64,000 nucleotides of DNA, from contig NZ_JAEFAJ010000012.1 in the NCBI RefSeq assembly GCF_016287535.1, positions 1-64,000 of the forward strand, in the 5' to 3' direction. The DNA is from Ruminococcus sp. Lineage in GTDB: Bacteria > Bacillota > Clostridia > Oscillospirales > Ruminococcaceae. The position numbers and the translations under genes were made by a program. A model generated the notes under the pieces. That model searched no databases. It was not told where the DNA came from and saw only the letters and a list, made by a program, of their open reading frames with translations. This document shows positions 5,955 to 34,813 of this stretch, one piece after another (within the stretch, counting starts at the first letter, position 1; every line of letters begins with the position of its first letter).

Positions 5955-6054
5955 TATCGATCCATCCTTCCTTTTTTTATTTTTCTACAATTCCCCGTAA
6001 TGTACCGTTCCGCCTGTGCGCAGGATGATATGTTTACAGTATTTTGCACTTTAT

Positions 6055-6083
6055 ATTATAACACGCTCATATACAAATTGCAA
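6055..6083 (-). promoter_or_regulatory. Promoter of the giant surface protein
   Basis: Minus strand: -35 TTGCAA (6078-6083), 17-bp spacer, -10 TATAAT (6055-6060). A small CCTG-TGCG-CAGG hairpin lies in the roughly 95-nt leader. Confidence 0.6.
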
Positions 6084-6375
6084 TATTTTAACTTTAACTA
6101 ATATTTAAAAATATTTAAGTCGCTTTTGTGCATTTTGTAAGAGATTTCCGCTTTTTTTTGAACTTCAACAGCAAGTTAAACAATGCGCCGCAACTGCCGG
6201 TCAACTGGCAGTACCAATTTCGGTTGACTCTCACAAAGACTTCGGCTAAAAACCATTCACGACCGGATTCTACACTTCGTATTATCAGATTTTTGTATGG
6301 ATATATATAAATCGCATTTATCAATTATGAATGTTTTGAAATGGGTTTGTGTATCAAATTTCGGCAAATATGCTA

Positions 6376-6404
6376 TTTACAATCTACCTAAAACATGATA
6401 TCAT
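6376..6404 (+). promoter_or_regulatory. Promoter of the ECF S-component gene
   Basis: TTTACA (6376-6381), 17-bp spacer, TATCAT (6399-6404). Confidence 0.6.
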
Positions 6405-6420
6405 AATGATTGTATTATAT

Positions 6421-6433
6421 CCCCGAAACGGGG
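6421..6433 (+). promoter_or_regulatory. Small hairpin just before the ribosome site
   Basis: CCCCG-AAA-CGGGG lies ten bases before AAGGAGG (6443-6449). It may influence translation of the transporter gene. I cannot match it to a known riboswitch. Confidence 0.35.
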
Positions 6434-6458
6434 AGTAGTAACAAGGAGGAAATTAAAT

Positions 6459-7661
6459 ATGAAAGCGAATTCCAAAATTCGTTCGATGGTGCTTCTGGGC
6501 CTTCTGACTGCTGTTGTAGCGCTCTTTTCGCTCACGCCAATAGGCTCTATACCTATCGGACCATTGTCCATCACCCTTAATATCATACCCATTGCCATCG
6601 CTGCCATCGCCCTCGGACCTGTAGGCGGACTTATCATGGGAACGGTATTCGGACTCTTCAGTTTCATGCAGTGCTTCGGCATCGGAGTCCTCAGCGGAAT
6701 GGGTGCCGCAACACTTGAAATAAGCCCCCTGCTCACATTCGTACAGCGAGTTATACCGCGTGCGCTTGACGGTCTGCTGGTCGGACTTATCTTCTCTTCA
6801 CTTTCAAAAATCAATTCAAAAAAAGCTCTTTCCATTATTTCCGGCATCGTTTCCGGTATAGTTCTTATCGGACTTTTCCTTTCAGTCATGCTGCTCATAT
6901 GCCATGACGAAAACGGCAAATACAAGATGTCGGAAGGTATGTATAACTTCATGACATCGGGACTTCCCGTCGCTCTCACGCTCACCGGAGTATTCGCTGT
7001 CGGCTTCGCTGTGATGTTCTGGTTCGTCAGAAAGAAGGATCTCTCGAAGGTGCAGCAGTCATGCGGAATCGCAGGCTTCTCCGCCGCGATACTCAATACC
7101 ATCTTCTTTATGGGAGCTTTGGTACTGCTCTTCAACCACACTTCATTCGGTCTTGACAGCAAGTACACCTTCAGGGTGAACAACGGTATCGTCACAGAGG
7201 TATCCGAGGACAAAGCCCACCCGGTTGAAATATCTACCGACGGCAAGGGCGTAGTCATTGACAACGCGCTCATCTTCTCACTTGACGATCCTGCTTCAGT
7301 ATCATCAGCAGTTCCTACCGCTGACAAGGTAAAATACAAGTTCATAGCAAACGGTAAGAACGCAAAATTCTCGGAGGTATTCTGCAATGGCGAAAAGCTC
7401 AGCGGAAAAAAGTATTCTTTCAGCACTCCGAAGGTCAACTTCAAAGGCATCAGCGACGGAAAATATACGATTAAGGTTTACAAGGAATTCAACTACATCG
7501 ACAAGCTCAGAAGCGGTAAGAGCATACTGCTCTTCATAATCACAGCTGTCGGAATCAACGCACTGTTCGAAATGGTTATATCAACAATATTCACAACACT
7601 TATCGGCACTGCTCTCTTCAAGGCAAAGCTGATAAAGACACCGGAAAATCTCAAGGATTAA
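6459..7661 (+). CDS. ECF transporter S component with a large extra loop domain
   Basis: The 400-residue membrane protein resembles vitamin-binding S components of energy-coupling factor transporters (pantothenate/folate-type group). The N-terminal helices carry the typical pattern TPIGSIPIGP, then an IPIAIAAIALGPVGG helix. Family members usually have about 180-220 residues and six helices. Here a hydrophilic, beta-rich segment of about 120 residues (roughly 228-350) separates the fifth-helix region from a last hydrophobic stretch (SGKSILLFII onward). A shorter polar loop lies near 148-168. The substrate cannot be told from sequence, and no energising ATPases are nearby, so it probably uses shared EcfAAT encoded elsewhere. 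The start has AAGGAGG nine bases upstream. Confidence 0.75.
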   Translation: MKANSKIRSMVLLGLLTAVVALFSLTPIGSIPIGPLSITLNIIPIAIAAIALGPVGGLIMGTVFGLFSFMQCFGIGVLSGMGAATLEISPLLTFVQRVIPRALDGLLVGLIFSSLSKINSKKALSIISGIVSGIVLIGLFLSVMLLICHDENGKYKMSEGMYNFMTSGLPVALTLTGVFAVGFAVMFWFVRKKDLSKVQQSCGIAGFSAAILNTIFFMGALVLLFNHTSFGLDSKYTFRVNNGIVTEVSEDKAHPVEISTDGKGVVIDNALIFSLDDPASVSSAVPTADKVKYKFIANGKNAKFSEVFCNGEKLSGKKYSFSTPKVNFKGISDGKYTIKVYKEFNYIDKLRSGKSILLFIITAVGINALFEMVISTIFTTLIGTALFKAKLIKTPENLKD

Positions 7662-7666
7662 TGCGC

Positions 7667-7701
7667 AAAAGCCTTTTCCCCAATCGGAAAAGGCTTTTTT
7701 T
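7667..7701 (+). terminator. Intrinsic terminator after the S-component gene
   Basis: Inverted repeat AAAAGCCTTTTCC / GGAAAAGGCTTTT followed by further T residues. Confidence 0.9.
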
Positions 7702-7900
7702 CTGACCCGGCAGCGGCACGGACGCTCTGTTTACGCCGTTTTGCAGGAGTCCTGCATACTACCAGATACGCCTTTGATTTCATAACAGAATCATAGGAAA
7801 TTTATCTTACAAAATCACATTTTGTTCATTACAGATAGTATAATAGCTCTAATTTATAAAAAAATATAATTGGATTGATACTTTTTTATCACTTTTTTAG

Positions 7901-7922
7901 AAATCGCTTTTTATAGCGATTT
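7901..7922. promoter_or_regulatory. Palindrome upstream of the biosynthetic promoter
   Basis: AAATCGCT / AGCGATTT with a six-base centre ends six bases before the -35 box at 7929. The position suits a regulator-binding site, but no regulator is identified. Confidence 0.4.
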
Positions 7923-7928
7923 ATCCTA

Positions 7929-7957
7929 TTGACACTGCGCCTGATAGGTGTTAAGAT
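7929..7957 (+). promoter_or_regulatory. Promoter of the 13-gene biosynthetic operon
   Basis: TTGACA (7929-7934), 17-bp spacer, TAAGAT (7952-7957). The start codon lies 32 bases further on, behind GCGAGGAGC. The rest of the 7702-7989 gap holds nothing else I can name. Confidence 0.8.
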
Positions 7958-7989
7958 GTATTTATAAACAAAAGCGAGGAGCAAGTTAA

Positions 7990-8907
7990 ATGTGCAAAAA
8001 AGCATTCCTTTTCCACGGAATCGGATCAAAGCCTGAAAAGATCATAGCAAATCTCACTCCGGAGTTAAAGGAAAAATACGAGTCATACCTGCAGGAAGCG
8101 CTGATACACTGCGGACTTCCGGCAGATACAGGCAACCTCTCAGGTCATGAGGCAAGGGCTGCCGAATGGCTCGTTCCTTTTATATGCGACAGGGTCGTAT
8201 ATGAGTACCTTACAGGAAAAGGAATAATACCTGATATCGGCGCAGGCTACAGTTCAGGTATAGTCAGCGCAAGTGCCTGCTTCGGTTCAATAAAACATAC
8301 CGACGCTCATGATATCGTTATGACTCATCTCTCCATGTTCCGGAAGCTCGAAGAGAATAACGTGAAGCTCAATATGGGTATCGTCGTGGGCTTCCCCTAC
8401 GACGAACTGAAAGAACTTCTCAGCCGCAGTTTCAGTCCCGATGACCTTGTTATCGGAAGCGGAAATTCCGGCTTTCATGTTATGATAAGCGGCAAGGCAG
8501 ATGCTGTTGAAAAAGCGATCGGGGTATGTACCGACGAGGGTGCACTCAAAGCCTTCACCATGAACACCGGCACCGCTTTCCATCATCCGATCATGGAAAA
8601 ATATTCCGCCGAATACTTAGAACTCTGCAGGGATCTGGACTACAAAAAACCGGAGCATCCCCTGATGTCCGTATTCGATCAGACTGTGCTGAGTACAGCC
8701 GATGATATACGCAGGGAAAACCTTTACAATGTCTGCACTCCCATGCGCTGGGATCTGGCACTGAAAAAGCTGGAGGAGCTCGGCGTAAGAGAGTTTTTCG
8801 ATATAAGCGCTAACGGCGCTATCAAAAAGTTTTCAAGAGTAAGCAGAAAATGCAGTATATATACCCTTGAGGATATACTCAGCGGTAACTGCCCCGCTCT
8901 TGCATAA
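7990..8907 (+). CDS. FabD-like acyltransferase lacking the malonyl-binding Arg
   Basis: 305 residues with the malonyl-CoA:ACP transacylase fold. The nucleophile elbow is GYSSG with Ser88, and the catalytic His is 198 (TAFHHPIM). Two usual active-site residues differ. The Arg that holds the malonyl carboxylate, 25 residues after the Ser in FabD, is His113. The early GQGSQ motif reads GIGSK, losing the oxyanion Gln. In trans-AT polyketide systems, loss of this Arg goes with acetyl transfer or acyl-hydrolase proofreading, so ordinary malonyl loading is doubtful here (inference). It is the first gene of the operon, followed after 67 bp by a carrier protein. Confidence 0.8.
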   Translation: MCKKAFLFHGIGSKPEKIIANLTPELKEKYESYLQEALIHCGLPADTGNLSGHEARAAEWLVPFICDRVVYEYLTGKGIIPDIGAGYSSGIVSASACFGSIKHTDAHDIVMTHLSMFRKLEENNVKLNMGIVVGFPYDELKELLSRSFSPDDLVIGSGNSGFHVMISGKADAVEKAIGVCTDEGALKAFTMNTGTAFHHPIMEKYSAEYLELCRDLDYKKPEHPLMSVFDQTVLSTADDIRRENLYNVCTPMRWDLALKKLEELGVREFFDISANGAIKKFSRVSRKCSIYTLEDILSGNCPALA

Positions 8908-8974
8908 TGCCGTCAGAGCCGTATACAACGGCTTTGAAATAAAAAAATATTAAAATTTTGGAGGTTGCTTTTTT

Positions 8975-9277
8975 ATGAGGGAAATAACAGAGGAGATCAG
9001 GGAAGAAATCAAGGACATGATCTTTGACTATTACGCCGATGAGTGCGAGATCGACAGGTCAGAGATCACTATGGAATCAAACCCGAATGAGGACTTCGGA
9101 AGCGATTCACTTATGTTCGTTGAGCTTATCGAAATGACAGCTGACAAGTACGATCTTGACATCAAGCTTCAGAGCATCGGTAAGTATATGCTCAAGACTC
9201 CTATGAACACTATGGCAGACGTTGTTGATATGTTCTGTAAGATATATCAGTACGGCAACGATGTTGTTAATCAGTGA
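8975..9277 (+). CDS. Acyl carrier protein 1
   Basis: 100 residues, acidic and helical. The phosphopantetheine site is GSDSLMFVE with Ser45 in the D-S-L motif. It has a strong GGAGG site after an A/T-rich 67-bp gap, which may allow higher expression than its neighbours. Its stop overlaps the GTG start of the crotonase behind it. It probably carries the growing chain, while the second carrier (16966) may serve starter loading; that division is inference. No phosphopantetheinyl transferase is encoded nearby. Confidence 0.88.
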   Translation: MREITEEIREEIKDMIFDYYADECEIDRSEITMESNPNEDFGSDSLMFVELIEMTADKYDLDIKLQSIGKYMLKTPMNTMADVVDMFCKIYQYGNDVVNQ

Positions 9278-10005
9278 GGCAGCAAACGGTGTATTCTAAT
9301 TTATCAGAGCTTCATGCCGAAGATAATATCGCCGTTCTCACAATAAACAACGGTCCGAAGAATCTGCTCTCAGAACCCGAATTCATAGACCGCAGAGAGC
9401 TCCTTAGCTGGCTGGATAAGAATCCGCAGACAGGAGCTCTTGTCATTAAAGGAGAGGGCAGACATTTCTCACACGGCGCTGACGTTTCACTGTTCGGTAC
9501 TTCCGAAATCCCGGTACTCTCGGAAAAGCTTGAAAAAGCCCGTGAGCTTCTCAGGACCATCGAGGAGCTTCCCATCGTTACGGCAGCTGCCATCAACGGG
9601 GGCTGCTTCGGCGGTGGACTTGAAGTCGCTCTCAGCTGTCAGTTCCGAATCGCTTCGCCGAAGGCTCTCCTCGGACTTACCGAGATAATGCACGGCGTTG
9701 TTCCGGGTATGGGCGGTATGGAACGACTTTACAGACTGCTCGGCAGGGAAAAGGCTCTTCAGATGATATTGCAGGGCGAAATGATAAGCGCTTCGGACGC
9801 TCTCTCAATGGGACTTGTTACAAAAATAACAGAGCAGAAGGACGCCTTCGAGGAGACCATGAGCTTCGTGAAAGAGCTCATCTCAGGCAAGTCCATGGCT
9901 CAGATAAACGGTATAACAGGCACGTTGAACCGTGCTTCACACGGTGAAAACGATCCTTCAAAGGGCTGCTTTGAAGCTGCTCTTGCGGAGGCATTAAAGA
10001 AATGA
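9274..10005 (+). CDS. Enoyl-CoA hydratase/isomerase family protein (crotonase 1)
   Basis: 243 residues, full crotonase length. Both oxyanion-hole segments are present (GRHFSHGADV; NGGCFGGGLE). Both catalytic Glu positions of classical enoyl-CoA hydratase are kept, one in GGGLEVA and one in GLTEIMHG. It is therefore likely to add or remove water on a 3-hydroxyacyl thioester, rather than being an HMG-cassette decarboxylase. Translation starts at GTG 9274, overlapping the carrier-protein stop by four bases, and ends with a four-base overlap into the thioesterase, so translation is coupled. Confidence 0.85.
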   Translation: MRQQTVYSNLSELHAEDNIAVLTINNGPKNLLSEPEFIDRRELLSWLDKNPQTGALVIKGEGRHFSHGADVSLFGTSEIPVLSEKLEKARELLRTIEELPIVTAAAINGGCFGGGLEVALSCQFRIASPKALLGLTEIMHGVVPGMGGMERLYRLLGREKALQMILQGEMISASDALSMGLVTKITEQKDAFEETMSFVKELISGKSMAQINGITGTLNRASHGENDPSKGCFEAALAEALKK

Positions 10006-10415
10006 ACAAAAGTACATATCACCTTACTGTGCGCGGCTGCGAGCTTGACTCGTTCGGCCACGTCAATAATGCCGTATACCTTCAGTACGCTGAAACGGCA
10101 GTATGGAACTTCTTCAGACAGAGCGATCATCTTGACGAGCTGTTTGAAAGCGGACTGTTCCCCGTAATACTTGAAAGCACTCAGCGGTATATACATGAAC
10201 TGAGGCTTTTCGACGAAGTGAGGATAGAATCCGAATTCCATACATCAGGCGGCATCATAAATTATAAACATAATATATTCAACGAGGGAACAGGTCAGAT
10301 AGCCTGCAGGATAAGCGGAAAGATCGCATTTGTGGATAAAGACCGCATGATATGCAGCGTCCCCGATGAATTGATGGAATATCTGGAGAATAACAAAGAT
10401 GATAATAAAAACTGA
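10002..10415 (+). CDS. Hotdog-fold acyl thioesterase (YbgC/FadM/4-hydroxybenzoyl-CoA type)
   Basis: 137 residues. The N-terminal signature D-S-F-G-H-V-N-N-A-V-Y-L-Q-Y includes the catalytic Asp16 of this thioesterase clan. It could release a free acid from CoA or carrier protein. A second, unrelated thioesterase closes the operon (17219), so one may release product and the other clear stalled carriers (inference). The start overlaps the previous gene by four bases; the end overlaps the next by 17 bases. Confidence 0.85.
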   Translation: MNKSTYHLTVRGCELDSFGHVNNAVYLQYAETAVWNFFRQSDHLDELFESGLFPVILESTQRYIHELRLFDEVRIESEFHTSGGIINYKHNIFNEGTGQIACRISGKIAFVDKDRMICSVPDELMEYLENNKDDNKN

Positions 10416-10818
10416 CGAATTCGTCACAGAGGTGAGCGGTATCGCTTCACTCGACGAACTCACTGAAGCAGAGCTGGGCACTCCCTGTTTGCTGATAGTA
10501 CACGTCAACGGCAGCATCTATGCCGGCAATTTCAATAAAACTTCTGAGTTTTTTGTAAACGCTCCTTTTGTTACCGCTCTTGCGGACAATGAGCCCGACA
10601 GCAGTATATCAGGATTTTTTGATATGGTAATACCCGCAGAGAATACCGGTGAATTTACTGCAAAGCTCTTCAAGGACAAGACAAGATTTCAGGCAGAGCA
10701 GATCAATACCTGCTTCATAGCTGCAAGAAAGGGCAGTCAGTCTGATATACTCGACTGTGAATCAAAAGCGTTCTACCGCCTTCTTGCAGACAAGACAGGA
10801 GGCAGCTCAGATGAATGA
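10399..10818 (+). CDS. Short degenerate crotonase-like protein, probably without hydratase activity
   Basis: 139 residues. The C-terminal half looks like the end of a crotonase: FFDMVIPAEN resembles the common G-L-V-x-x-V-V-P-A-E stretch, and ESKAFYRLLA resembles the E-x-x-A-F-x-x-L tail. The N-terminal half lacks both oxyanion-hole motifs and both catalytic Glu positions. It may be a structural partner of one of the flanking full-length crotonases, or a decayed duplicate. The frame is intact and overlaps both neighbours (17 bp and 8 bp), which argues for a maintained gene. The family assignment is tentative. Confidence 0.6.
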   Translation: MIIKTDEFVTEVSGIASLDELTEAELGTPCLLIVHVNGSIYAGNFNKTSEFFVNAPFVTALADNEPDSSISGFFDMVIPAENTGEFTAKLFKDKTRFQAEQINTCFIAARKGSQSDILDCESKAFYRLLADKTGGSSDE

Positions 10819-11521
10819 TACTATCAATATCACGCTCACAGAAGAAAACGGCGTCCTCAGTTTCGTTATGGACGCTCCCAGCAACAATATCATGTCATCG
10901 GCATTCCTCGACAAGTACGAAGCCGTTATGGAGGAGGTCGCTGAAAGAGCGGCGGACGGCGGTATAAAGGGCATGATAATCAGAGGCGGCGGACGCCATT
11001 TCAGCGTAGGCGCCGACGTGGACGCTCTTTTTGAGCGTTCTCAGAAAGAGAGCTACACCGACGAGGACGGTATCCTTCCTGCCTCTCACGTAAAACAGAA
11101 ATCGCGCTTCACCTTCCTGCGCAGTCTTCCCTTCCCTGTTGTCAGCGTGGTAACAGGTTTCTGCATCGGCTCCGGCAGCGAGATAGCTGTCAACAGCCAC
11201 TACAGGGTTATCGAGAAGAACGCAAGGATAGGTCAGCCCGAATCGACCTTCGGCATACTCCCGGCACTTGGCGGCGTCGCACGAAATATCGAGATATGCG
11301 GCACTAAAAACGCATACGAACTGGTAATGTCGGGCGAGCTTATCCCCGCCGAAAAAGCCTACGCGATCGGATATGCTGATATATTCGCAGAAAAGAAACA
11401 GGGAGTTCCGGAAGCTCTCGCTCTCATTGAATACATCTCAGCAAACTATGATACCTTCTCGCCTGCACGCTTCAGGGAATACATAACTGCCTACAAGCAG
11501 AGCAGGGAGGCTAACGCATGA
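10811..11521 (+). CDS. Enoyl-CoA hydratase/isomerase family protein (crotonase 2)
   Basis: 236 residues. I chose ATG 10811 because AGGAGG (10797-10802) sits eight bases before it; an upstream in-frame start would overlap the previous gene heavily. The oxyanion segments are GRHFSVGADV and GFCIGSGSE. Both Glu positions are present (GSGSEIA; GQPESTFG). It is clearly diverged from crotonase 1, so it probably acts at a different step or chain length. It overlaps the dehydrogenase start by four bases. Confidence 0.85.
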   Translation: MNDTINITLTEENGVLSFVMDAPSNNIMSSAFLDKYEAVMEEVAERAADGGIKGMIIRGGGRHFSVGADVDALFERSQKESYTDEDGILPASHVKQKSRFTFLRSLPFPVVSVVTGFCIGSGSEIAVNSHYRVIEKNARIGQPESTFGILPALGGVARNIEICGTKNAYELVMSGELIPAEKAYAIGYADIFAEKKQGVPEALALIEYISANYDTFSPARFREYITAYKQSREANA

Positions 11522-12639
11522 ACATTGGCATTATCGGCTACGGAAAAATGGGAAAGGATATCTTCTCCCTTTTTTTTGACAGGCTTCCGGACGCACATTT
11601 CACAGTTCTTGACCTGACGGGCGCTGAGGAGAATACAGACGCTCTGCTGAAAACTCTCGGCAAGAGCCTGAAGAGAAAAAAGCTGACCGAAGAACAGTAT
11701 GAGTTCAAAAAAAGCTCCTTTCTCTTCACAGACAGTATCTCTGATATGAAGGACTGCGATATAATAATAGAGGCTGTATTCGAGGATCTGAAGGTCAAAC
11801 AGGACATATTCCGTCAGCTTGCGGGAACAGTTTCCGAAAGCTGTCTCCTTCTGACGAATACATCTTCACTGAAAATATCAGACGTTTTCGACGGCGTTCC
11901 ACACAGGGAACGCTGCTTCGGTCTGCACTTCTTCTATCCCGTAAAGCTCTCAGGCTTTGTGGAGCTCAACGTGATCCCGGATTCCTCTGAGGAAAACATT
12001 GCCAAGGCAAAGGCTCTCGTAACCGCGGGAGGTAAGAAACCCATCATATTTGAAGGCAGCTACCACATATACCTCAATCAGCTCCTTTCATGCATGATAG
12101 GTCACGCGATCATAATGAAAGAACGCTTGGACGTTTCCGTAAATGAAATGAACAACGCCCTGGCTCCGTTTTTCTCGATCGCAGCGCCGTTCGATATACT
12201 TGACAGCGTCGGACTCGGACTTATGGGCAGGGATCCCGAAAGTTTCCGTATCACACGCAGCCGTCCGCTCCATATAAAGAACTACGAGACAATGAAGTCA
12301 TGGACCGAAAACGGCTGCCCTCAGGCTCCTCTGACATTTCTCGGCTATATGGCTGAAAAAGAGACTGATACCGGAAATGTATGCGAAAACGCTGAACTGG
12401 ATATGACCGCATTCCTGCTCAATGAAACAGTGAATGCTCTTGAAGAATACAGCGGAGACAAAAATACACTCTTTGAGGCGATCTGCGATACACTCGGTCT
12501 CGCGGAAGCGCCCTCGTTCTACTACAAGAAATTCGGCACAGAAATGATCTTCTCCGCACTGGACAAATATGCAGAAGCTACCGGCTTCGCAGCTTACAAC
12601 CACAAGGATAAATCTGTATGGGACAGATACTTCAAATAA
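11518..12639 (+). CDS. 3-hydroxyacyl-CoA dehydrogenase family protein
   Basis: 373 residues. The N-terminal NAD-binding Rossmann fold has GYGKMG at residues 7-12. The family motifs NTSSL and GLHFFYP follow, with catalytic His137 inside the latter. The C-terminal half covers the usual helical dimerisation domain and an extra tail. It would interconvert 3-oxoacyl and 3-hydroxyacyl thioesters. The operon contains no FabG-like ketoreductase, so this enzyme is the obvious candidate for beta-keto reduction after the ketosynthase. That would be an unusual use of a beta-oxidation-type enzyme (inference). Confidence 0.85.
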   Translation: MNIGIIGYGKMGKDIFSLFFDRLPDAHFTVLDLTGAEENTDALLKTLGKSLKRKKLTEEQYEFKKSSFLFTDSISDMKDCDIIIEAVFEDLKVKQDIFRQLAGTVSESCLLLTNTSSLKISDVFDGVPHRERCFGLHFFYPVKLSGFVELNVIPDSSEENIAKAKALVTAGGKKPIIFEGSYHIYLNQLLSCMIGHAIIMKERLDVSVNEMNNALAPFFSIAAPFDILDSVGLGLMGRDPESFRITRSRPLHIKNYETMKSWTENGCPQAPLTFLGYMAEKETDTGNVCENAELDMTAFLLNETVNALEEYSGDKNTLFEAICDTLGLAEAPSFYYKKFGTEMIFSALDKYAEATGFAAYNHKDKSVWDRYFK

Positions 12640-12664
12640 TTTTCCGATGAAAGGAAGAAATAAT

Positions 12665-13876
12665 ATGAAGAAAGTAGTTATCACAGGTCTTGGCTCGATC
12701 ACTGCCATAGGTCTGAACACCAACGATTACTGGAATGCTCTCACCAACGGAGAATGCGGTATGGCTAAAATAACTCGCATCTCCTTAAAAGATCACGATA
12801 CGACCGTTGCCGCTCAGGTAAGCGACGATTTTGAAGCGCTCGTTTCAAAACACTGGAAAAAACGTCAGCTCAATATAACCACAAAAAGTACAAGAATGTG
12901 TCTCGCAGCTGCAGGGGAAGCAATCGACGACTGCGGCGCAGACTTCACTGCACTCGATACAACAAGGATAGGAATAATCTTCGGTATAGCCGACAACTCA
13001 TACAACGACAGCGAAAAAGAGGGACGAACAAATATCATACTCAAGCGTATGCCAAGCGAGATCCCCGCAATGCTTGCTCTTAAATACGGCATTAAGGGAC
13101 CTTCATTCAATATCAGCACAGCCTGCGCTTCATCCGCTTATGCAGCGACCCTCGGAAAACAGCTCATACAGTCGGGCGCTTACGATATGATAATCACAGG
13201 CGGTATGTCAAATGTGGTATCACATATCATACTCAACGGCTTCAACCAGCTCCTTGCTATGTCGGTAAATCCCGACCCTGCTACAGCTTCACGCCCGTTC
13301 ACCAAGAACCGTGACGGCTTCATCATGGGCGAAGGAAGCGGCGTAATCATACTCGAATCCGAGGAACACGCAAAGGCAAGAGGCGCCAAGATATACTGCG
13401 AGCTTGCAGGTGCAAGCATGACCTGTGAGGCATACAACCTGACAGCGCCCAAGACAGACGGCGAAGGTATGGCTGAGGCTATCAGTCTCGCTATCAGGGA
13501 CGCAGGCATCTCGCCTGACGAGGTGGACTACATCAATGCTCACGGTACGTCCACAAGTCTCAACGATCTCTATGAAACAATGGCTGTAAAGAAGATATTC
13601 GGCAAAAAAGCCTATGATATCCCGATGTCATCCATCAAGGCCGCTATCGGACATACCCTTACAGCCTGCGGCGCTCTTGAGGGAATCGCCTGTGTAAAGG
13701 CTATCGAGTCAGGTATCCTCCCGCCGACTATCCACTACGATGAGCCGGATCCGGAGCTTGATCTCAACTATATCCCGAACAAGGCTTTAAAGAAAGATGT
13801 AAATGTTGCCATATCAAATTCATTCGGTTTCGGCGGACATAACTCAACTCTTGTCTTCAGGAAATATCAGGGCTGA
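12665..13876 (+). CDS. Beta-ketoacyl-ACP synthase (FabF-like)
   Basis: 403 residues from ATG 12665, preceded by AAGGAAG. The complete Cys-His-His triad is Cys154 in STACASS, His293 in NAHGTSTS and His330 in AIGHTLTACG, with Lys325 also kept. The C-terminal GFGGHN loop is present. It should catalyse decarboxylative Claisen condensation and is the only condensing enzyme in the operon, so it either works iteratively or performs a single extension. Intact Cys154 rules out a decarboxylase-only synthase of the Cys-to-Ser type. Confidence 0.92.
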   Translation: MKKVVITGLGSITAIGLNTNDYWNALTNGECGMAKITRISLKDHDTTVAAQVSDDFEALVSKHWKKRQLNITTKSTRMCLAAAGEAIDDCGADFTALDTTRIGIIFGIADNSYNDSEKEGRTNIILKRMPSEIPAMLALKYGIKGPSFNISTACASSAYAATLGKQLIQSGAYDMIITGGMSNVVSHIILNGFNQLLAMSVNPDPATASRPFTKNRDGFIMGEGSGVIILESEEHAKARGAKIYCELAGASMTCEAYNLTAPKTDGEGMAEAISLAIRDAGISPDEVDYINAHGTSTSLNDLYETMAVKKIFGKKAYDIPMSSIKAAIGHTLTACGALEGIACVKAIESGILPPTIHYDEPDPELDLNYIPNKALKKDVNVAISNSFGFGGHNSTLVFRKYQG

Positions 13877-13902
13877 GAAACAGCCGGGAAAGGGAACATG
13901 AA

Positions 13903-14259
13903 ATGCCTATAACACAAATGAAGACTAATTACAGATTCAGCTCGCCTGCTCTTCGCACAGCCTTCATCGACGAAGCTGCAAGCGAGCTTTCAGAGATACT
14001 CCGAAAGCCGTTGCCGGCAATAATGGTAATGCTCGACGAGTGCTCAATGTACATGAACAGCTCGGAAGACACAGTTTTCTTTGCAGAGTTCAGATATATA
14101 CTCCCTCAGGAGTATGCTGACAACAAGGCAGCCTTTCTGAAAGAGCTCGCCGACAGAATGCTCAGCATTATACAGAAGCACACCCATGCAGATCCCTACC
14201 GCGTTTATATGCAGTTCACAGAGATGACACGTGAGGGCGCATGGAAATATACAGGCTGA
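13903..14259 (+). CDS. MIF-like tautomerase
   Basis: 118 residues. It matches the macrophage migration inhibitory factor branch of the tautomerase superfamily along its whole length. Met is followed by Pro, which becomes the catalytic N-terminal base after Met removal. The Lys equivalent of MIF Lys32 is in RKPLP, and PYRVYMQF aligns with PDRVYINY, with Asn replaced by Gln. A GAWKY tail matches the MIF end. Such enzymes interconvert keto and enol forms of alpha- or beta-dicarbonyl compounds. In this operon it could tautomerise an enolised ketide intermediate or product (inference). Confidence 0.75.
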   Translation: MPITQMKTNYRFSSPALRTAFIDEAASELSEILRKPLPAIMVMLDECSMYMNSSEDTVFFAEFRYILPQEYADNKAAFLKELADRMLSIIQKHTHADPYRVYMQFTEMTREGAWKYTG

Positions 14260-14283
14260 AACATGAGAAAGGAATAGATAAAT

Positions 14284-15405
14284 ATGAAATGGGCAATCAG
14301 AGATTTGCTTAACCCTGTAGTAACACGTTCTCTCCTCTACGGAGCAGATCCTTTTGACCTTGAGGCTATCCTCAAGAAGATCGACAATATAAAGGTCAGA
14401 AGCGGAAAGCAGATACAGGAAGTATGGATAAACGAGTGGCACGCCAAGATAGACCGCTATTCAGAGCTCCGCGACAAGGCTGAAAAGGAAGGAAACAGGA
14501 TCTCTGCAAGAGAGTATGCAAAAATGGTGACACAGTGCCACTACGCCTGCTTTATGATAAACATCGAGGATCTGGAACACAAGACCGAGATATACAACGG
14601 ACTTGAAGAAAGCTACAAGCGTTATATAAAGCTCTGTAAGAACAAGGTAGAATATGCCGAGATAGACACAAAGGAAGGAAAGCTCCCTGCTTATATACAC
14701 TATCCGGACTCAGGCAGAAAAACAAATTATCCCGTAGCAGTTACCTACTCCGGTATCGGCAGCTGCAAGGAGGAGCTCGAAATGCTGGCTGCTCCCCTCA
14801 ACGAAAGAGGTATAGCAGTTATCACTCCCGATATGCCCGGTGCGGGAGGAGCTATAATCCACAGGAACATCAAGTGCGGCGGAAAGCAGTTGGAGGCTGC
14901 TTTCAACGGCATAATCAGATTCGTTAAGAGCCATAAGAAGCTCGACGAGAAGAATATGGCTAATTTCGGACTCTGCATGGGCGGCGGCTACGCCTTCCGC
15001 GCAACTGTAAAGAATCCCAAGGCAAAGGTTTGCGTAAGTCTCTTCCCACTCCTCATGCACTTCGCAAATCTGGACAGCATCCCTGTATGGATGAAGCGCG
15101 GCAAGTGGAGCTCATATCAGTACGCTGATGATTACCTTGAAGGTATGAAGATTCTGGAGGAGGGTACTCACAAGGCAGACTTCCTCATGGTATACAGCAG
15201 CGACGACAACTGGATGTCTCCCGAAGCTTCACAGAGGCTGCTCAGCAAGGCAGCCGGCTATAAGGAGAGCATACATATCCAGGATAAGCCCGCATATGTT
15301 TCCGAGGAAACTATCATGCACGCTATGCCCGTCGGTGAACAGTACCACTGGGTAAAGCATATTGCAGCAGACTTCATAGCCGCAAGACTTAACGGGGGAA
15401 AATAA
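14284..15405 (+). CDS. Alpha/beta hydrolase with Cys nucleophile (FrsA/dienelactone-hydrolase-like)
   Basis: 373 residues. A helical N-terminal cap of about 145 residues comes before the hydrolase core. The nucleophile elbow is GLCMGGG with Cys231 in place of the usual Ser. The likely Asp is in SSDDNW (307/308) and the His is 355 (EQYHW). Ser-based FrsA/pseudooxynicotine hydrolases have a similar cap. A Cys nucleophile is typical of dienelactone hydrolase. It might open a lactone, cleave a C-C bond in a diketone, or act as an acyltransferase. The function cannot be fixed from sequence. Confidence 0.7.
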   Translation: MKWAIRDLLNPVVTRSLLYGADPFDLEAILKKIDNIKVRSGKQIQEVWINEWHAKIDRYSELRDKAEKEGNRISAREYAKMVTQCHYACFMINIEDLEHKTEIYNGLEESYKRYIKLCKNKVEYAEIDTKEGKLPAYIHYPDSGRKTNYPVAVTYSGIGSCKEELEMLAAPLNERGIAVITPDMPGAGGAIIHRNIKCGGKQLEAAFNGIIRFVKSHKKLDEKNMANFGLCMGGGYAFRATVKNPKAKVCVSLFPLLMHFANLDSIPVWMKRGKWSSYQYADDYLEGMKILEEGTHKADFLMVYSSDDNWMSPEASQRLLSKAAGYKESIHIQDKPAYVSEETIMHAMPVGEQYHWVKHIAADFIAARLNGGK

Positions 15406-15406
15406 A

Positions 15407-16969
15407 ATGTCAGAGAAATTTTTCGATTTCTACAGCAGATACGCTCAGGAAACGCCTGAAAAGGTCCTCCTTAGAATTGACGAGAAAGAGCTTACATACG
15501 CACAGTTCATGGAAAAGACAGCTGTTTTCGGCTCTGCAATGAAGAAGCTCGGTATCGGCGAGGACGACAAGGTCGGCATATGTATGCCAAACAGCATCGA
15601 GTGGTTCATCGTTTACTGGTCGGCAGTAAGAATAGGCGCACAGCCTGTTCCCATGGATCCGCAGAGCGGCTCCTTCGAGCTCTCAAAACTCATACCTGCC
15701 ACCACATCAAAGATACTGTTCATCACTGAAAAATACAGAAACAACGATATAATCGCTGCGGTCAGCGCACTTGTTCCGTCACAGATAACACTTGACAAGG
15801 TAATATGCTTCGCTGACGACAGCGTTATCCCACAGGACAGCTGCTACACCTCCGCTGACAGGTTCACTGCGGAATACGGCAGCAGCGAATGTGAGATATA
15901 CGAGCCGGACTATCTTCACACCATGTCCCTTGCCTGCACTTCAGGCAGCACCGGCACACCAAAGATACTTTCAGTACCCTCAGGCGGATTTCTCTCCTCA
16001 CAGAAGGATATGGGCGACTACCTTGAGTTCAGGGCTGATGATGTAATGATGCTTGGCATGACACTCTATCATCAGGGCGGCTTCGGCATGGGACAGCAGA
16101 TGGTGCTCAAGGGCGGTACAGTTATGTACCAGCCCCAGTTCAATCCGATCACTTTTCTCGAAACTGTTCAGAAATACAGGATAAATGTTATACAGCTCAC
16201 TTCCACGCTTGCAAAGGTGCTTCTCTCAACTCCCGACTTTGACAAGTACGACCTTTCAAGCGTCCGTATCTGTTATTTCGCAGGAGAGGTACTCCCGAAA
16301 GAGATAGCTGATATCTTCGTTGAAAAGCTCCATATCCGCGTTATCAATGTCATCGGCTCTTCCGAGACCTGCACTATGGTGGTATGGGATTCCGCAAGAG
16401 ACGCAGGCACTGACCCCAGCGACTTCCGCAAGCTCAGCTTCACCGACGTCCGCGTTATCGACGAGAAACACAACGAGGTTCCTGAGGGTGAAGTCGGAGA
16501 ACTCTGCGTATACACAGACGGAGTTATCACGGACTATTTCGGCAATCCTCAGCTCTCGGCAGAGAAGATACTCACAGATGAGCAGGGACGCCGCTGGTTC
16601 TGTACAGGAGACCTTGTAAACAAGCTGCCCGGCGGTATAGTACGTTTCGCAGGAAGAAGCAAGCGCATAATCAAGCGCGGCGGCAATCTCGTTCACGCCG
16701 AGGAAGTAGAGGCTTGTCTCCTTACTCACCCGAAGATAGCGGCTGCGGCAGTTACCGACGAGCCCCACCCTGTTATCGGACAGCAGATAGTAGCCTATAT
16801 CCAGCCCAAGGGCGATGAAAGGATAACACGCGGCGAGCTGGCACGTTATTTTGACGGAAAGCTCTCAGCCTACAAGGTGCCGGACAAGATAGTTCTTGTT
16901 GAGGAGATTCCGAAGGATATCGGCAAGATACAGTTCAAATACCTCAGAAAAAAGGAGTACAAACAATGA
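15407..16969 (+). CDS. AMP-dependent acyl-CoA/acyl-ACP ligase
   Basis: 520 residues, class I adenylate-forming enzyme. The P-loop TSGSTGTPK is at 178-186. A5-type GSSET, the hinge region CTGDLV...FAGRSKR and C-terminal GKIQF with the catalytic Lys are all present. It activates a carboxylic acid as acyl-AMP and transfers it to CoA or to a carrier-protein thiol. The following gene, with a four-base overlap, is a carrier protein, so direct loading of that carrier is likely. The substrate (fatty, aryl or amino acid) cannot be read from the pocket with confidence. Confidence 0.9.
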   Translation: MSEKFFDFYSRYAQETPEKVLLRIDEKELTYAQFMEKTAVFGSAMKKLGIGEDDKVGICMPNSIEWFIVYWSAVRIGAQPVPMDPQSGSFELSKLIPATTSKILFITEKYRNNDIIAAVSALVPSQITLDKVICFADDSVIPQDSCYTSADRFTAEYGSSECEIYEPDYLHTMSLACTSGSTGTPKILSVPSGGFLSSQKDMGDYLEFRADDVMMLGMTLYHQGGFGMGQQMVLKGGTVMYQPQFNPITFLETVQKYRINVIQLTSTLAKVLLSTPDFDKYDLSSVRICYFAGEVLPKEIADIFVEKLHIRVINVIGSSETCTMVVWDSARDAGTDPSDFRKLSFTDVRVIDEKHNEVPEGEVGELCVYTDGVITDYFGNPQLSAEKILTDEQGRRWFCTGDLVNKLPGGIVRFAGRSKRIIKRGGNLVHAEEVEACLLTHPKIAAAAVTDEPHPVIGQQIVAYIQPKGDERITRGELARYFDGKLSAYKVPDKIVLVEEIPKDIGKIQFKYLRKKEYKQ

Positions 16970-17217
16970 ATAACCTTGATTTTGAAAAATTCACACAGGC
17001 TATCTCCGATTACGTCGGAGTTGACGCTTCTGAAATAACAAGAGACACCGACGTTTACGACGATCTTTACCTTGACTCGCTTGGACTTTTCGGTCTGGGC
17101 TCAGAGATAACCGAATCCTTCAGGATCAACATTCCCCTTTCACTGGTAGCTTCTATCAGCAAGGTAGGCGAGATATTCGACCTCCTTAATGAAAAGGGCA
17201 CACCTGTTGAGGAGTAA
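16966..17217 (+). CDS. Acyl carrier protein 2
   Basis: 83 residues with the LYLDSLGLF phosphopantetheine site (Ser38). It is only weakly similar to carrier 1, as expected for carriers that meet different partners. Coupled translation with the ligase suggests it receives the activated starter acid. Confidence 0.87.
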   Translation: MNNLDFEKFTQAISDYVGVDASEITRDTDVYDDLYLDSLGLFGLGSEITESFRINIPLSLVASISKVGEIFDLLNEKGTPVEE

Positions 17218-17218
17218 T

Positions 17219-17917
17219 ATGGTTCTTTTCTTTCTTTCCCATGCAGGCGGCTCCGCAAAGAGCTACGCCTCATTCAAACGCTTCCTGCCGAAAGAACTGA
17301 CTGTAGTCCCTATGGAGCTCTCAGGACGCTTTACACGTATGTCAGAGCCTCTCCTCAACACAATACCCGACTGCGTTGCTGACCTCACAGAGAAGCATTC
17401 AGAGCTTCTCAGAGGCGAGTATGCGCTCTTCGGTCACAGCATGGGTACTGTACTTGCTACAGAGCTTGTAAAGCAGGCAAAGGAAAAGGGACTTGCGATG
17501 CCTTGTCATGTATTCCTTTCAGGAAAGAATCCTCCCGACGAGGATGTGCACTGCTTTGAACATATCGAGGACGCATCAGACGATGAGATAATATCGTTCT
17601 TCACGGATAATTCCCTTTCGTCAGCTGCTCCTGTCCCCGATCAGGCTCTCGTGAAGATGCTCAACCGCATACTCTGCACTGATGTCCGCATGGCGGAGCG
17701 CTACAGAGCCACACCTGAGGACGTAAAGTTTCCCTGCGATATCACAGTGCTTTACGGTACAGAGGATCCGCTTATGCAGAGGGTTGATATGCACAGCTGG
17801 AACAGGTTCACAGACGGGAAATGCAGCGTATACCCGTTTAGCGGGGATCATTTCTACTATCAGCAGCACAAGGAGGAAGTCTGCTCTGTTATAAAGGAAA
17901 AATTGGGCATAGACTAA
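17219..17917 (+). CDS. Type II thioesterase
   Basis: 232 residues from ATG 17219, one base after the stop of carrier 2 and behind GAGGAG. It is an alpha/beta hydrolase with N-terminal SHAGGSA, nucleophile elbow FGHSMGT (Ser74), acid in GTEDP and His in GDHFYY. This is the classical editing thioesterase of polyketide and non-ribosomal peptide clusters, removing wrong or stalled acyl groups from carrier proteins. Its presence is one of the stronger arguments that this operon makes a secondary metabolite rather than membrane lipid. Confidence 0.88.
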   Translation: MVLFFLSHAGGSAKSYASFKRFLPKELTVVPMELSGRFTRMSEPLLNTIPDCVADLTEKHSELLRGEYALFGHSMGTVLATELVKQAKEKGLAMPCHVFLSGKNPPDEDVHCFEHIEDASDDEIISFFTDNSLSSAAPVPDQALVKMLNRILCTDVRMAERYRATPEDVKFPCDITVLYGTEDPLMQRVDMHSWNRFTDGKCSVYPFSGDHFYYQQHKEEVCSVIKEKLGID

Positions 17918-17924
17918 ACAGTCA

Positions 17925-17949
17925 AGGGCGCACATCTGTGCGCCCTTTT
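17925..17949 (+). terminator. Terminator of the biosynthetic operon
   Basis: AGGGCGCACA-TC-TGTGCGCCCT followed by TTT, between convergent operons. Confidence 0.9.
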
Positions 17950-17973
17950 GATATATCAGATCAACGATATCAT

Positions 17974-19158
17974 TTACTGACTTACAGCTTTTTTTACATT
18001 GGTGCCTATAGACGCGCTGTTGTATTTTACTCTGCGCACAAGGAGCGTGAGCAGTACAACAGCTGCGGCAAAAGCAAGCTGTATCAGATAGCACTGTACT
18101 ATCTTACCGAAGCTGTACGGTGTTACATCAGCTATCATTTCATTTGCGCTTACATACCAGTAAGCAGGAAGGAACCTTGCAACGGATAGAACGCCGCTGC
18201 TGAGCACCTCCCTTGGTATGAACACACCGCAGAAGAAGCTCATGCCAAGTCCGAGGATCTGGGTCAGCAGGCTCACGATATTGTCTTTGGGTTCAAAGCT
18301 TGAAATAAATACCGCTATCGCAGTTATTACAACAGAGAATATGAAGCTGTTGAGCACAGCAAGCCATGCTCTGCCGGTATATATCTCCTCGTTGAGCACA
18401 GCGCCGACTATCATAAGTATAATCCATATCGCAAAGACGAATACAAAGCTTCCTGCGAATATCTGCAGCGTATAAGAGGAATTTTTTATGCTGGAGCAAT
18501 TCGTGCGGTAGCGTATATCCTTCTTGTTCATAGTCACAAGTACAGACGTTATAACGCTTATTATAACGGATATGAGTATATAAGGCATATACTGAAAGTA
18601 TCCGGCAAAATCAACGCTGAAATGCGAAGCTCCGCCCTTGTCTGTCCTGAGCATATCCACATCGGTCTGCTGTGAGAGCAGCTCCTCCGTGCGGGATATT
18701 GCCTCAGTCATGTCCCTGCCAATAGCAAGGTACAGCTTTACAGAACTTGTGTACTCGTCAAGGTACTGTCCCATATACACCGTGGAAAAACGGTCTCCTA
18801 TGCAATAGGTGTCGAACAGTCCGGCTGTTTCCCCTGCCGTCAGCTTTTCCGCGTAGCCCTTGTTTATATTGAGCACATAATCAGCGCGTTTATAGTACAA
18901 AGAGTCGATGATAACGTCCCTGTCGTTCTCTATATCAACTATATCATTGCTTTTTCCTATGAACTCCGCAAGAGCGCGGCTGGCGTAGCTTTCGTCCTCA
19001 TCGAATATACATATTTTCAGTCTGCTCGCCTCGAATCTGTTGTCCTTTGTCGAAGCCTTTGTGACCATTACCGAGACAGCAACAAACACAATTATGTATA
19101 CCATCGCTGAGGGCAGCCTTTTTATAATGACCTTCATCATTGCCTTAAATACTTGCAT
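17974..19158 (-). CDS. ABC-2 type transporter permease (second)
   Basis: 394 residues from ATG 19158, which has GAGGAGG upstream, rather than an earlier in-frame ATG inside the preceding gene. One N-terminal helix (IYIIVFVAVSVMV), a large extracytoplasmic domain and five or six C-terminal helices give the YhgE/DrrB-like ABC-2 layout. The start lies 14 bp inside the preceding permease gene. It is the last gene of the three-gene exporter operon and converges on the biosynthetic operon. Confidence 0.85.
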   Translation of the reverse strand: MQVFKAMMKVIIKRLPSAMVYIIVFVAVSVMVTKASTKDNRFEASRLKICIFDEDESYASRALAEFIGKSNDIVDIENDRDVIIDSLYYKRADYVLNINKGYAEKLTAGETAGLFDTYCIGDRFSTVYMGQYLDEYTSSVKLYLAIGRDMTEAISRTEELLSQQTDVDMLRTDKGGASHFSVDFAGYFQYMPYILISVIISVITSVLVTMNKKDIRYRTNCSSIKNSSYTLQIFAGSFVFVFAIWIILMIVGAVLNEEIYTGRAWLAVLNSFIFSVVITAIAVFISSFEPKDNIVSLLTQILGLGMSFFCGVFIPREVLSSGVLSVARFLPAYWYVSANEMIADVTPYSFGKIVQCYLIQLAFAAAVVLLTLLVRRVKYNSASIGTNVKKAVSQ

Positions 19159-20284
19159 ATTTCTTCCTCCTCGAAAAAACGAAACCAAGAAATACGAATA
19201 TAAATGTTGTCACTGCCATAGTTATCAGCTTTGTTACAAAGCGGTCGTAATCCTCATAGATATTCAGGCAGTAGAAGCAGTCGGAGATAACTGCCGCAGG
19301 GTTGATATTATTGAACCACGGCATCTTTTCAACTATAACAGCCTTCATGTCCCCCATCATGAGACCGCTGCAGAAGCAAAGCAGCAACGCAAAGGCAGTG
19401 AGTATTGCTGTCTTTGTCTTTTCTCCCACACGGGCTATGGAGCCTACGAAGAAACCGAAGGAAACACCGAGTATTCCGCCCATTATTGCGGCAGGATATA
19501 CTAAGTACAGCCTGTCTCCAAAGTCCACCTTCAGTACAAAAGCAAGGAATGAGACGCAGAGTATCATACAGAAGGTCTGCATTATGCAGCTGCCTGTGAA
19601 ACAGGCAAGTATGCTTACTGATTTTCTGGCGGGAGAGCAGTTGTTCCTTGCGCCCAGCGCCGAAAGATCAGCCTGATTCTGTATAGTGATGTGCATTCCG
19701 ATATTGCAGCCGAAAAGCGCTACCATTGCGATAAGGTTATAGAAATACTGGATATACATATCGGGATTTCCCTGTGTGAGAGGTATCTCCCTGCAAGACG
19801 AAACAGTCTCTCCCGTAAGAGCTTCTATGACCTCCTGTGCCTTTTCCGGAGCTGTATTTATCGCGTCCATAGCTATTTTTTCGCGGACCGTATACTGCTC
19901 CAGAAATGACTTGAGCATAGTCTCGCGGAGGCCCTTTTCCTTTACCGTAAGGCTCAGCTTACCGTCCGAGACTATTATGCCCTCGACGTCGCCGTTATCC
20001 AGCATTTTCTCGGCGCCGTCCATATCCGTGAAGCTGACCTTCAGGAACGGTTCGTCTGACTTTCCGATATTCTCCATTACCTGTCTGAATGCGGTATTAT
20101 CCGTGTTCTCCACCACTGCAACGGGTATCGCGCTGAACTTTTCCGTTTTCTCATATATACTTCCGAAAGCTATCTTGAAACAGATACCGAGGGCTATCGG
20201 GAAGATTATGAGCCAGACGGTTATTTCCTTTACACGAAGGCTGTTTTTCAGCTCATATTTCAGTATATGAAAGAACATAGTCAA
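19145..20284 (-). CDS. ABC-2 type transporter permease (first)
   Basis: 379 residues with the same layout as the next permease: N-terminal helix near 20-37, long outer domain, then helices from about 190 onward. The two permeases probably form a heterodimer with the ATPase. It starts four bases before the ATPase gene ends (ATGA overlap). Confidence 0.85.
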   Translation of the reverse strand: MTMFFHILKYELKNSLRVKEITVWLIIFPIALGICFKIAFGSIYEKTEKFSAIPVAVVENTDNTAFRQVMENIGKSDEPFLKVSFTDMDGAEKMLDNGDVEGIIVSDGKLSLTVKEKGLRETMLKSFLEQYTVREKIAMDAINTAPEKAQEVIEALTGETVSSCREIPLTQGNPDMYIQYFYNLIAMVALFGCNIGMHITIQNQADLSALGARNNCSPARKSVSILACFTGSCIMQTFCMILCVSFLAFVLKVDFGDRLYLVYPAAIMGGILGVSFGFFVGSIARVGEKTKTAILTAFALLLCFCSGLMMGDMKAVIVEKMPWFNNINPAAVISDCFYCLNIYEDYDRFVTKLITMAVTTFIFVFLGFVFSRRKKYASI

Positions 20285-21231
20285 TCCTCCTTGTCCCTGA
20301 GTGCGGTACCTGTAATTTCAAGGAATACGTCGTTCAGTGTAGGCAGCTCTGTGTATACTCTTCCGAAGCCGAGCTCGTTCTTCTGCAGCACGTCCAGCAC
20401 TCTTATCAGATTATGCTTTCCTCCCGAACAGCAGACAATGAGCTTTTCGTCCTCACGCTTTGTATCGTATACATGAGGCAGTCCTGATATCTCCTTCAGC
20501 ACACTGTCCGGAAGCTCCAGTATATCTATTGTAATTGTCTCGGTATTCTTTATCATGCGTTTAAGTTCATCCTTTGTGCCCTCAGCTACCTTTCTTCCCT
20601 TGTCCATGATAGCTATGCGGGTGCATATATGCTCCACCTCTTCCATGTAGTGAGAGGTATATATAACTGTAGCGCCGTTTTTATTGAGGTCAAGTATACC
20701 TTCGAGGATACGGTTCCTGCTCTGCGGGTCTACAGCCACTGTAGGCTCGTCAAGGATGATCAGCTTAGGCTTGTGAGCGATACCGCAGGCAATGTTCAGT
20801 CTGCGGAGAAGTCCGCCAGAGAGCTTTCTGGGATAAAATCTGCGGAAATCCTCAAGTCCCACGAACTTTATCGCTTCCTCAACGTACTCCCTGCGCTTTT
20901 CCTTGTCTTTTATATAAAGACCGCAGAAATAGTCAATGTTCTCATAGACGGTAAGCTCTTCAAATACCGCCACATTCTGCATTATAACTCCTATCTCCTT
21001 TTTGATGTCATAGCTTACAGGTGTCATCTTTTTTCCGAACAGCTCGATATCGCCCTTGTCAAAAGCAAGCAGCGAAAGCAGACAGTTTATAGTCGTAGTC
21101 TTTCCCGAACCGTTAGGACCGAGAAGTCCGAATACCTCTCCCTCCTTTATTTCAAGGCTGAAGTGATCCAGTGCGATGAGGTCGCCGTAGCGTTTAACGA
21201 GGTCCTTTATCTTAACAACTGTATTTTCCAT
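20281..21231 (-). CDS. ABC exporter ATP-binding protein (DrrA type)
   Basis: 316 residues from ATG 21231 with GGGAGG upstream. Walker A is GPNGSGKTT, the signature is LSGGLLRRL and Walker B is LIILDEP. The C-terminal extension of about 80 residues is typical of DrrA-like exporters of drugs, lipids or antibiotics. Its promoter has a good -10 (21265-21270) but a poor -35, and a palindrome lies further upstream, which suggests activation by a regulator. It is the plausible export route for the product of 7990-17917, based on position only. Confidence 0.9.
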   Translation of the reverse strand: MENTVVKIKDLVKRYGDLIALDHFSLEIKEGEVFGLLGPNGSGKTTTINCLLSLLAFDKGDIELFGKKMTPVSYDIKKEIGVIMQNVAVFEELTVYENIDYFCGLYIKDKEKRREYVEEAIKFVGLEDFRRFYPRKLSGGLLRRLNIACGIAHKPKLIILDEPTVAVDPQSRNRILEGILDLNKNGATVIYTSHYMEEVEHICTRIAIMDKGRKVAEGTKDELKRMIKNTETITIDILELPDSVLKEISGLPHVYDTKREDEKLIVCCSGGKHNLIRVLDVLQKNELGFGRVYTELPTLNDVFLEITGTALRDKED

Positions 21232-21313
21232 AGTATTTCCTCCCTTATGATTTTCACTGTCATTATTATACCTCACCTGAAAGCATTTTTGTAGTGTCCC
21301 CAGTCAGTTTCTG

Positions 21314-26427: not shown

Positions 26428-26501
26428 CAAGTTGAAAAACAGGCACGGATAAGATAACGGGAATGGATATTAAAATACACAAACAGAAAGGAAAAATTGC
26501 A

Positions 26502-34732: not shown

Positions 34733-34813
34733 AATAATTCCCTCCATTATGATTTTTCATGTTATTCTGATTCAGGGTTCACAGAACCCTCTTTCATTTT
34801 TCACCTTGTGTAC

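Follow-up and report, generated by a model that had tools for sequence, protein, structure and literature searches.

Type II aryl polyene clusters combine a ketosynthase and its chain-length partner with a ketoreductase of the short-chain dehydrogenase/reductase (SDR) type and a hot-dog dehydratase, and their product is a conjugated aryl polyene. In the cellulolytic anaerobe Clostridium thermocellum, a cellulose-tied aryl polyene pigment, the celluxanthenes (= flavoaffinins), is linked to the cex (faf) cluster (PMC12144888, PMC11839114), which contains a large iterative type I polyketide synthase (PKS; CexF), two KASIII proteins and a phosphopantetheinyl transferase. In this study, we analyzed a stretch of 64,000 nucleotides from Ruminococcus sp. 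(the window; contig 1 of the 51 that make up a 2.93-Mb genome), which carries a unit of 13 genes at 7990-17917. No characterized cluster with the gene set of this unit was found in the titles and abstract openings of the open-licence literature, and as far as these searches go the unit is undescribed. We would class it as a novel form of type II-like polyketide machinery, with a yellow pigment as the leading candidate product. That the unit is the pathway for a yellow-orange, conjugated polyene pigment of cellulolytic ruminococci is the reading we prefer, tentatively and at a little under an even chance.

All 13 open reading frames (ORFs) listed in the initial annotation were found at their positions, complete and co-directional on the plus strand. 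For three of them, internal starts are likelier judging from the upstream sequence (crotonase b, 10811; synthase, 12665; type II thioesterase, 17219), and with these corrected starts neighboring ORFs overlap or lie at most 67 nucleotides apart. Pfam and NCBIfam scans recognized the acyltransferase, both carriers and both crotonases, the 4HBT thioesterase, the 3HCDH protein and the FabF-type synthase, as well as the alpha/beta hydrolase, the AMP ligase and the type II thioesterase; the largest protein is the ligase with 520 amino acids. The active-site residues are almost all kept across the rows of the family alignments. The features are as follows:

7929..7957, plus strand: promoter TTGACA-17-TAAGAT with TG before the -10 element (promoter scan)
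7990..8907, plus strand: gene 1, FabD-like acyltransferase, Ser88/His198 kept, no malonyl Arg (PF00698, 33.1 bits, cut-off 32.7)
8975..9277, plus strand: gene 2, carrier protein 1, Ser45 (PF00550)
9274..10005, plus strand: gene 3, crotonase a, full catalytic Glu pair (PF00378, 125 bits)
10002..10415, plus strand: gene 4, hot-dog thioesterase, YbgC/FadM-like (PF13279; TIGR00051 below cut-off)
10399..10818, plus strand: gene 5, short and fast-evolving, probably a crotonase-fold partner without catalytic Glu motifs (predicted structure)
10811..11521, plus strand: gene 6, crotonase b, full catalytic Glu pair (PF00378, 87 bits)
11518..12639, plus strand: gene 7, L-3-hydroxyacyl-CoA dehydrogenase family, C-terminal half diverged (PF02737, 129 bits)
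12665..13876, plus strand: gene 8, FabF-type ketosynthase, Cys-His-His intact (NCBIfam scans)
13903..14259, plus strand: gene 9, MIF-family tautomerase, N-terminal Pro (profile to L-dopachrome isomerase)
14284..15405, plus strand: gene 10, AntI/DHPON-hydrolase-like alpha/beta hydrolase, Cys231 nucleophile (alignment rows)
15407..16969, plus strand: gene 11, acyl-adenylating ligase (PF00501, 203 bits)
16966..17217, plus strand: gene 12, carrier protein 2, Ser38 (PF00550)
17219..17917, plus strand: gene 13, type II thioesterase, Ser-Asp-His intact (PF00975, 107 bits)
17926..17949, plus strand: terminator-like hairpin GGGCGCACA/TGTGCGCCC, then TTTT (sequence inspection)

With the cex system, the unit shares a ligase with a stand-alone carrier, an alpha/beta hydrolase and a cellulolytic anaerobe as host, and the same kind of product is proposed for it; the likeness holds at family level (CexD/B/E, compared by their descriptions). 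In contrast to cex, it has no large type I PKS, KASIII or phosphopantetheinyl transferase, and KASIII models matched only below cut-off, inside the FabF-type ketosynthase of the unit. With the aryl polyene/xanthomonadin systems, the unit has in common a discrete synthase, carriers, ligase-type starter loading, a thioesterase and an expected polyene. However, the unit has a single ketosynthase without chain-length partner, and 3HCDH plus crotonase replace the SDR and the hot-dog dehydratase, its own hot-dog protein matching 4HBT thioesterases. Type II fatty acid synthesis (FAS II) uses FabG, FabZ/FabA and an enoyl reductase, none of which the family scans detected in the proteins of the unit. 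L-3-hydroxyacyl dehydrogenase and crotonase share the S stereochemistry of beta-oxidation and are a matched pair, which would explain the joint replacement of FabG and FabZ. The 3HCDH protein of haliangicin is assigned to methoxymalonyl supply (PMC4768178, available part) and thus is not a precedent for reducing the keto group while a chain is being built. The proposal of the initial annotation, a dedicated and apparently undescribed thioester pathway, is borne out, with a gene set that is not of the FAS II, aryl polyene or cex type.

Judged by protein families and conserved residues, on which every step of the mechanism rests, the unit would be an iterative, type II-like assembly line dedicated to a polyketide. 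The ligase (Lys507 in 59 of 60 rows, a gap in one) would activate a carboxylic acid, probably an aryl acid and perhaps phenylacetate or phenylpropanoate, and load it onto carrier 2 (Ser in 58/58 rows), the start of whose gene overlaps the ligase stop by 4 nucleotides. The FabF-type synthase would extend this starter with malonyl on carrier 1 (Ser in 57/57 rows). C154, H293, K325 and H330 of the synthase are present in 60/60 rows; it scored 426.6 bits with TIGR03150, under the cut-off of 493.75, and 425.5 bits with NF005589 (KAS II subfamily), over the cut-off of 387. The dehydrogenase, in which H137, E149 and N187 occur in 59/59 rows and position 117 is Ser in 56 and Thr in 3, would reduce the keto group to L(S)-3-hydroxy, followed by dehydration by crotonase a (E117/E137 in 41/41 rows). 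Crotonase b (E124/E144 in 58/58 rows) and its short partner, gene 5, may isomerise or cyclise the chain, the MIF tautomerase and the cysteine hydrolase may finish the end group, and the two thioesterases (D16 of gene 4 in 57/57 rows, triad of gene 13 in 58/58) could serve release or proof-reading. Because the unit has no enoyl reductase, double bonds would accumulate and a conjugated polyene is the expected product. The single synthase with intact triad, the two carriers with the ligase overlap, the two full crotonases, the hydroxyacyl-CoA dehydrogenase and the two thioesterases named in the initial annotation were all recovered.

The first description of two further proteins needs qualification. 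Gene 1, described as acyltransferase-like, does belong to that family, with Ser and His in 54/54 rows. In FabD, an Arg binds the malonyl carboxylate. His113 of gene 1 aligned to this Arg of a FabD (PDB FabD relatives), and the column holds N in 38, H in 12 and other residues in 4 of the 54 rows. Since the malonyl Arg is missing, gene 1 is probably not the malonyl loader. Gene 5, described as a degenerate crotonase, encodes 139 amino acids without a family match in the scans. Its predicted structure is most like crotonases, with moderate scores; a credible sequence match was not obtained, including with a sequence profile against the PDB, and a GGG-x-E type motif is absent from the 30 aligned rows.

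Ligase, dehydrogenase, crotonases and thioesterases are all of beta-oxidation types, and the unit could instead serve the metabolism of an aromatic growth factor, with phenylpropanoate or phenylpropanoids from plants being activated and then processed much as in beta-oxidation; a requirement for 3-phenylpropanoate is stated in the available part of PMC9785684. We consider this unlikely, as the synthase is a FabF-type ketosynthase with Cys-His-His and no thiolase, as two carriers, an acyltransferase and a type II thioesterase are present, and as the family scans found neither acyl-CoA dehydrogenase nor electron transfer flavoprotein in the unit. The nearness of the synthase to the FabF equivalog, the two carriers and the thioesterases would also suit a modification of fatty acids or membrane lipids (unusual acyl chains) instead of a free metabolite. 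This is more unlikely still: the genome has one other ketosynthase, sited elsewhere, 37% identical to that of the unit and presumably the FAS one, only 48 of 120 congeners carry the unit, which is unusual for core lipids, and we know of no lipid role for MIF and AntI-like proteins.

Genes 9 and 10 bear on the nature of the product. Gene 10 has in common with AntI, Ayg1 and DHPON hydrolase an alpha/beta hydrolase with an N-terminal helical part. These relatives use a Ser nucleophile, whereas gene 10 has the Cys nucleophile that the initial annotation had assigned, aligned to the Ser of AntI and DHPON hydrolase and kept in 62/62 rows. Gene 9, annotated as a MIF tautomerase, gave a weak MIF match as a single protein (E 0.06) and, as a family profile, a clear match to L-dopachrome isomerase (E 6.9e-10). 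The profile match and the invariant N-terminal Pro (61/61 rows) are shared with the MIF/dopachrome tautomerases, from which gene 9 differs in being distant and in a PKS-like operon. AntI and Ayg1 act by C-C cleavage. By the titles of their database entries they shorten polyketides, which favors a dedicated polyketide pathway to a small metabolite other than a pigment (antibiotic, signal, cyclised lactone or aromatic), to which the hydrolase together with the crotonase pair would give its form. The MIF tautomerase, two full crotonases and two thioesterases likewise suggest more than a plain polyene, and the patchy, mosaic distribution detailed below is typical of specialized metabolites. Such a product is possible, if somewhat doubtful: the family scans found no aromatase/cyclase family in the 13 proteins, and a product related to cellulose would account no less well for the association with lineages that bear GH48.

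A hydrolase orthologue was found in 10 of 297 genomes of the family. In the nine carriers besides the window's own genome, the other 12 genes were all matched around the hydrolase, gene 5 down to E 4e-4. At E 1e-20, the hydrolase profile matched 1 of 394 genomes of the order, the window's own, and 2 of 391 of the class, the window's own and a weak match (G711) with no other unit gene within 19.5 kb around it; at E 1e-6, the MIF profile matched 1 of 319 genomes of the phylum, again the window's own. Outside the family there is nothing convincing. Viral spread and plasmid carriage were considered and rejected: viral_contigs gave no match to the exact peptide patterns of the hydrolase, and 48 plasmid records hold only hydrolases under 60% identity.

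Named genomes contained 62 loci, with titles that are all Ruminococcus, Oscillospiraceae, Clostridiales or Bacillota and with sources, where titles name one, that are mostly ruminant or other herbivore gut; carriers include ATCC 19208, FD-1 and 007c. The 13 genes stand in the order of the window in 39 loci, and 12 stand in order in 6 more, where gene 5 was undetected by tblastn; the hydrolase has moved before the synthase in 2, and 15 are partial, mostly on short contigs. One locus (L078) has no recognizable gene 4. The same order is kept in relatives with proteins 30-75% identical (e.g. L020), which puts the unit beyond chance. The flanks are not conserved (ECF gene upstream in 22/62 loci, ABC exporter genes downstream in 21/62 each), so that the unit comprises genes 1-13. 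The initial annotation would have been contradicted by the same gene order in a characterized pathway or by genes scattered singly; neither was found in the searches made here, and the genes travel as a unit.

The comparison of 12 genes, gene 5 excluded, revealed a mosaic. The nearest counterparts of genes 2-8 of the window are those of L041/L042 (FD-1), and those of gene 1 are in L048 and L050. For genes 9-13 they are found in L025 or L030, with L029 for gene 12, and over its initial 60 residues gene 7 resembles L025 more. With the switch point between synthase and tautomerase, chain-building and finishing halves seem to have been exchanged. Two loci of one metagenome-assembled genome, RGIG9739, lack inner genes without a run of N: L048 (6606-11122) is compact, with acyltransferase, gene 5, crotonase b, synthase and hydrolase only, up to near the contig end, and L031 (4310-11122) is without gene 5 and crotonase b. 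The two could complement each other, although the genome matching RGIG9739 (G1047) is listed with contamination 6.

Glycoside hydrolase family 48 (GH48) is a marker of crystalline-cellulose degradation. It occurs in 35 of the 297 family genomes, and all 10 carriers of the unit are among these 35. With kinship ignored, the association has p 1.5e-10 counting genomes and p 8e-6 counting genera (5 of 5 in 14 of 126).

Cellulolytic ruminococci are described as yellow or orange in the available parts of reviews. The corresponding parts of PMC8865330 single out R. flavefaciens for its yellow pigment, and those of PMC11055587 report isolates of both R. albus and R. flavefaciens as yellow on cellulose. 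R. flavefaciens DSM 25089 has neither a cex-like cluster nor celluxanthenes (PMC12144888, 2025). With the cex route excluded for this strain, and no report of genes for the R. flavefaciens yellow pigment found in titles and abstract openings of the open-licence literature, the unit is a concrete candidate for the ruminococcal pigment genes. In 8 of 11 genomes (10 named ones and the window's), two ketosynthase matches make up the total, that of the unit and one other. A carotenoid route was rejected, as the phytoene/squalene synthase family occurred in 0/11 genomes, with controls that responded in 7/14. In the genus of R. albus KH2T6, the hydrolase was found in 4/29 genomes. As to expression on cellulose, term searches in the transcriptome paper on R. 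albus 7 found none of the gene types of the unit mentioned in its main text (PMC4300822), and a rumen antiSMASH survey lists Ruminococcus only under sactipeptides and lantipeptides in the passages available (PMC8241843); this survey may have flagged the unit under another class.

Several observations weigh against the pigment reading. The best solved relatives of gene 11 are adenylation domains of nonribosomal peptide synthetases and a 2,3-dihydroxybenzoate ligase, and the aryl starter remains a candidate. In the window's genus, the unit is present in 48/120 genomes and GH48 in 107/120. Within the genus, GH48 occurs in 44/48 carriers and 63/72 non-carriers, a comparison that takes two draws of 120 as the same and in which the 4 carriers without GH48 are 69-79% complete. 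The unit does not track GH48 there and is not needed for cellulolysis, because only 26 of 65 high-quality congeners have it and all 65 have GH48. Another genome (G1158; 4.5 Mb, 5 contigs) carries all 13 genes in order (locus L089) and is probably R. albus 7; a 'white'-named species carrying the unit speaks mildly against a pigment, and the report of yellow R. albus (PMC11055587) speaks for it. Unpigmented rabbit isolates were placed nearer R. albus (PMC8865330, available part), and a pigment-less mutant of C. thermocellum grew and used cellulose like the wild type (PMC12144888). DSM 25089 is strain 17 (PMC6456569, available part), which may or may not carry the unit. Finally, ATCC 19208, ND2009 and FD-1 gave 3, 6 and 7 ketosynthase matches, with some matches being fragments of a single gene, and further PKS-type genes of these strains could make a pigment. 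In their genomes (G1032, G1039 and G1034, with loci L083, L032 and L042), the extra matches lie in large ORFs of up to 2499 amino acids.

The connection of the unit to cellulolytic ruminococci and to a pigment was absent from the initial annotation. If the pigment reading is true, cellulose-linked pigments evolved convergently, and a polyketide line would exist in which beta-oxidation-type enzymes carry out keto reduction and dehydration in the building direction. It might also connect a product with the old puzzle of phenylpropanoate as a growth factor for R. albus. The more specific version, in which a cellulose-tied polyene pigment arose independently of the clostridial celluxanthenes on such a type II line, with a shortened crotonase partner, and the R. 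albus growth factor (3-phenylpropanoate/phenylacetate) is its starter, would explain why the factor is needed for growth on cellulose and not on sugars, and appears improbable to us.

A strong promoter and a terminator had been annotated around the unit. The promoter was found; the hairpin is present (9 bp, G+C), but with too few T for the threshold of the terminator scan. The region holds 25 promoter-type sites, where shuffled sequence would give 16.2, so that a lone site means little. The strict promoter pattern lies at most 110 nucleotides upstream of gene 1 in 28/52 loci, a figure without chance control. The interval between -35 and -10 (AATAGGTG before the -10 element) is conserved in many R. 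flavefaciens loci, e.g. L025, L026 and L083, and may be a regulator site. Rfam gave no match at gathering score across 5000-20000 of the window.

Directly downstream and convergent with the unit, 17974-21276 (minus strand) encodes two ABC-2 permeases and a DrrA-like ATPase, which are found beside the unit in 21/62 loci; they are a possible exporter that is not fixed to the unit. Farther along the window, 26463-29324 encodes a BNR-repeat protein whose C-terminus bears a type I dockerin of the kind known from cellulosomal enzymes, in support of a cellulosome-type host. Two large proteins are encoded on the minus strand, one with CotH-kinase and LTD domains (31343-34747) and one of 1494 amino acids with CBM_4_9 domains (51862-56346).

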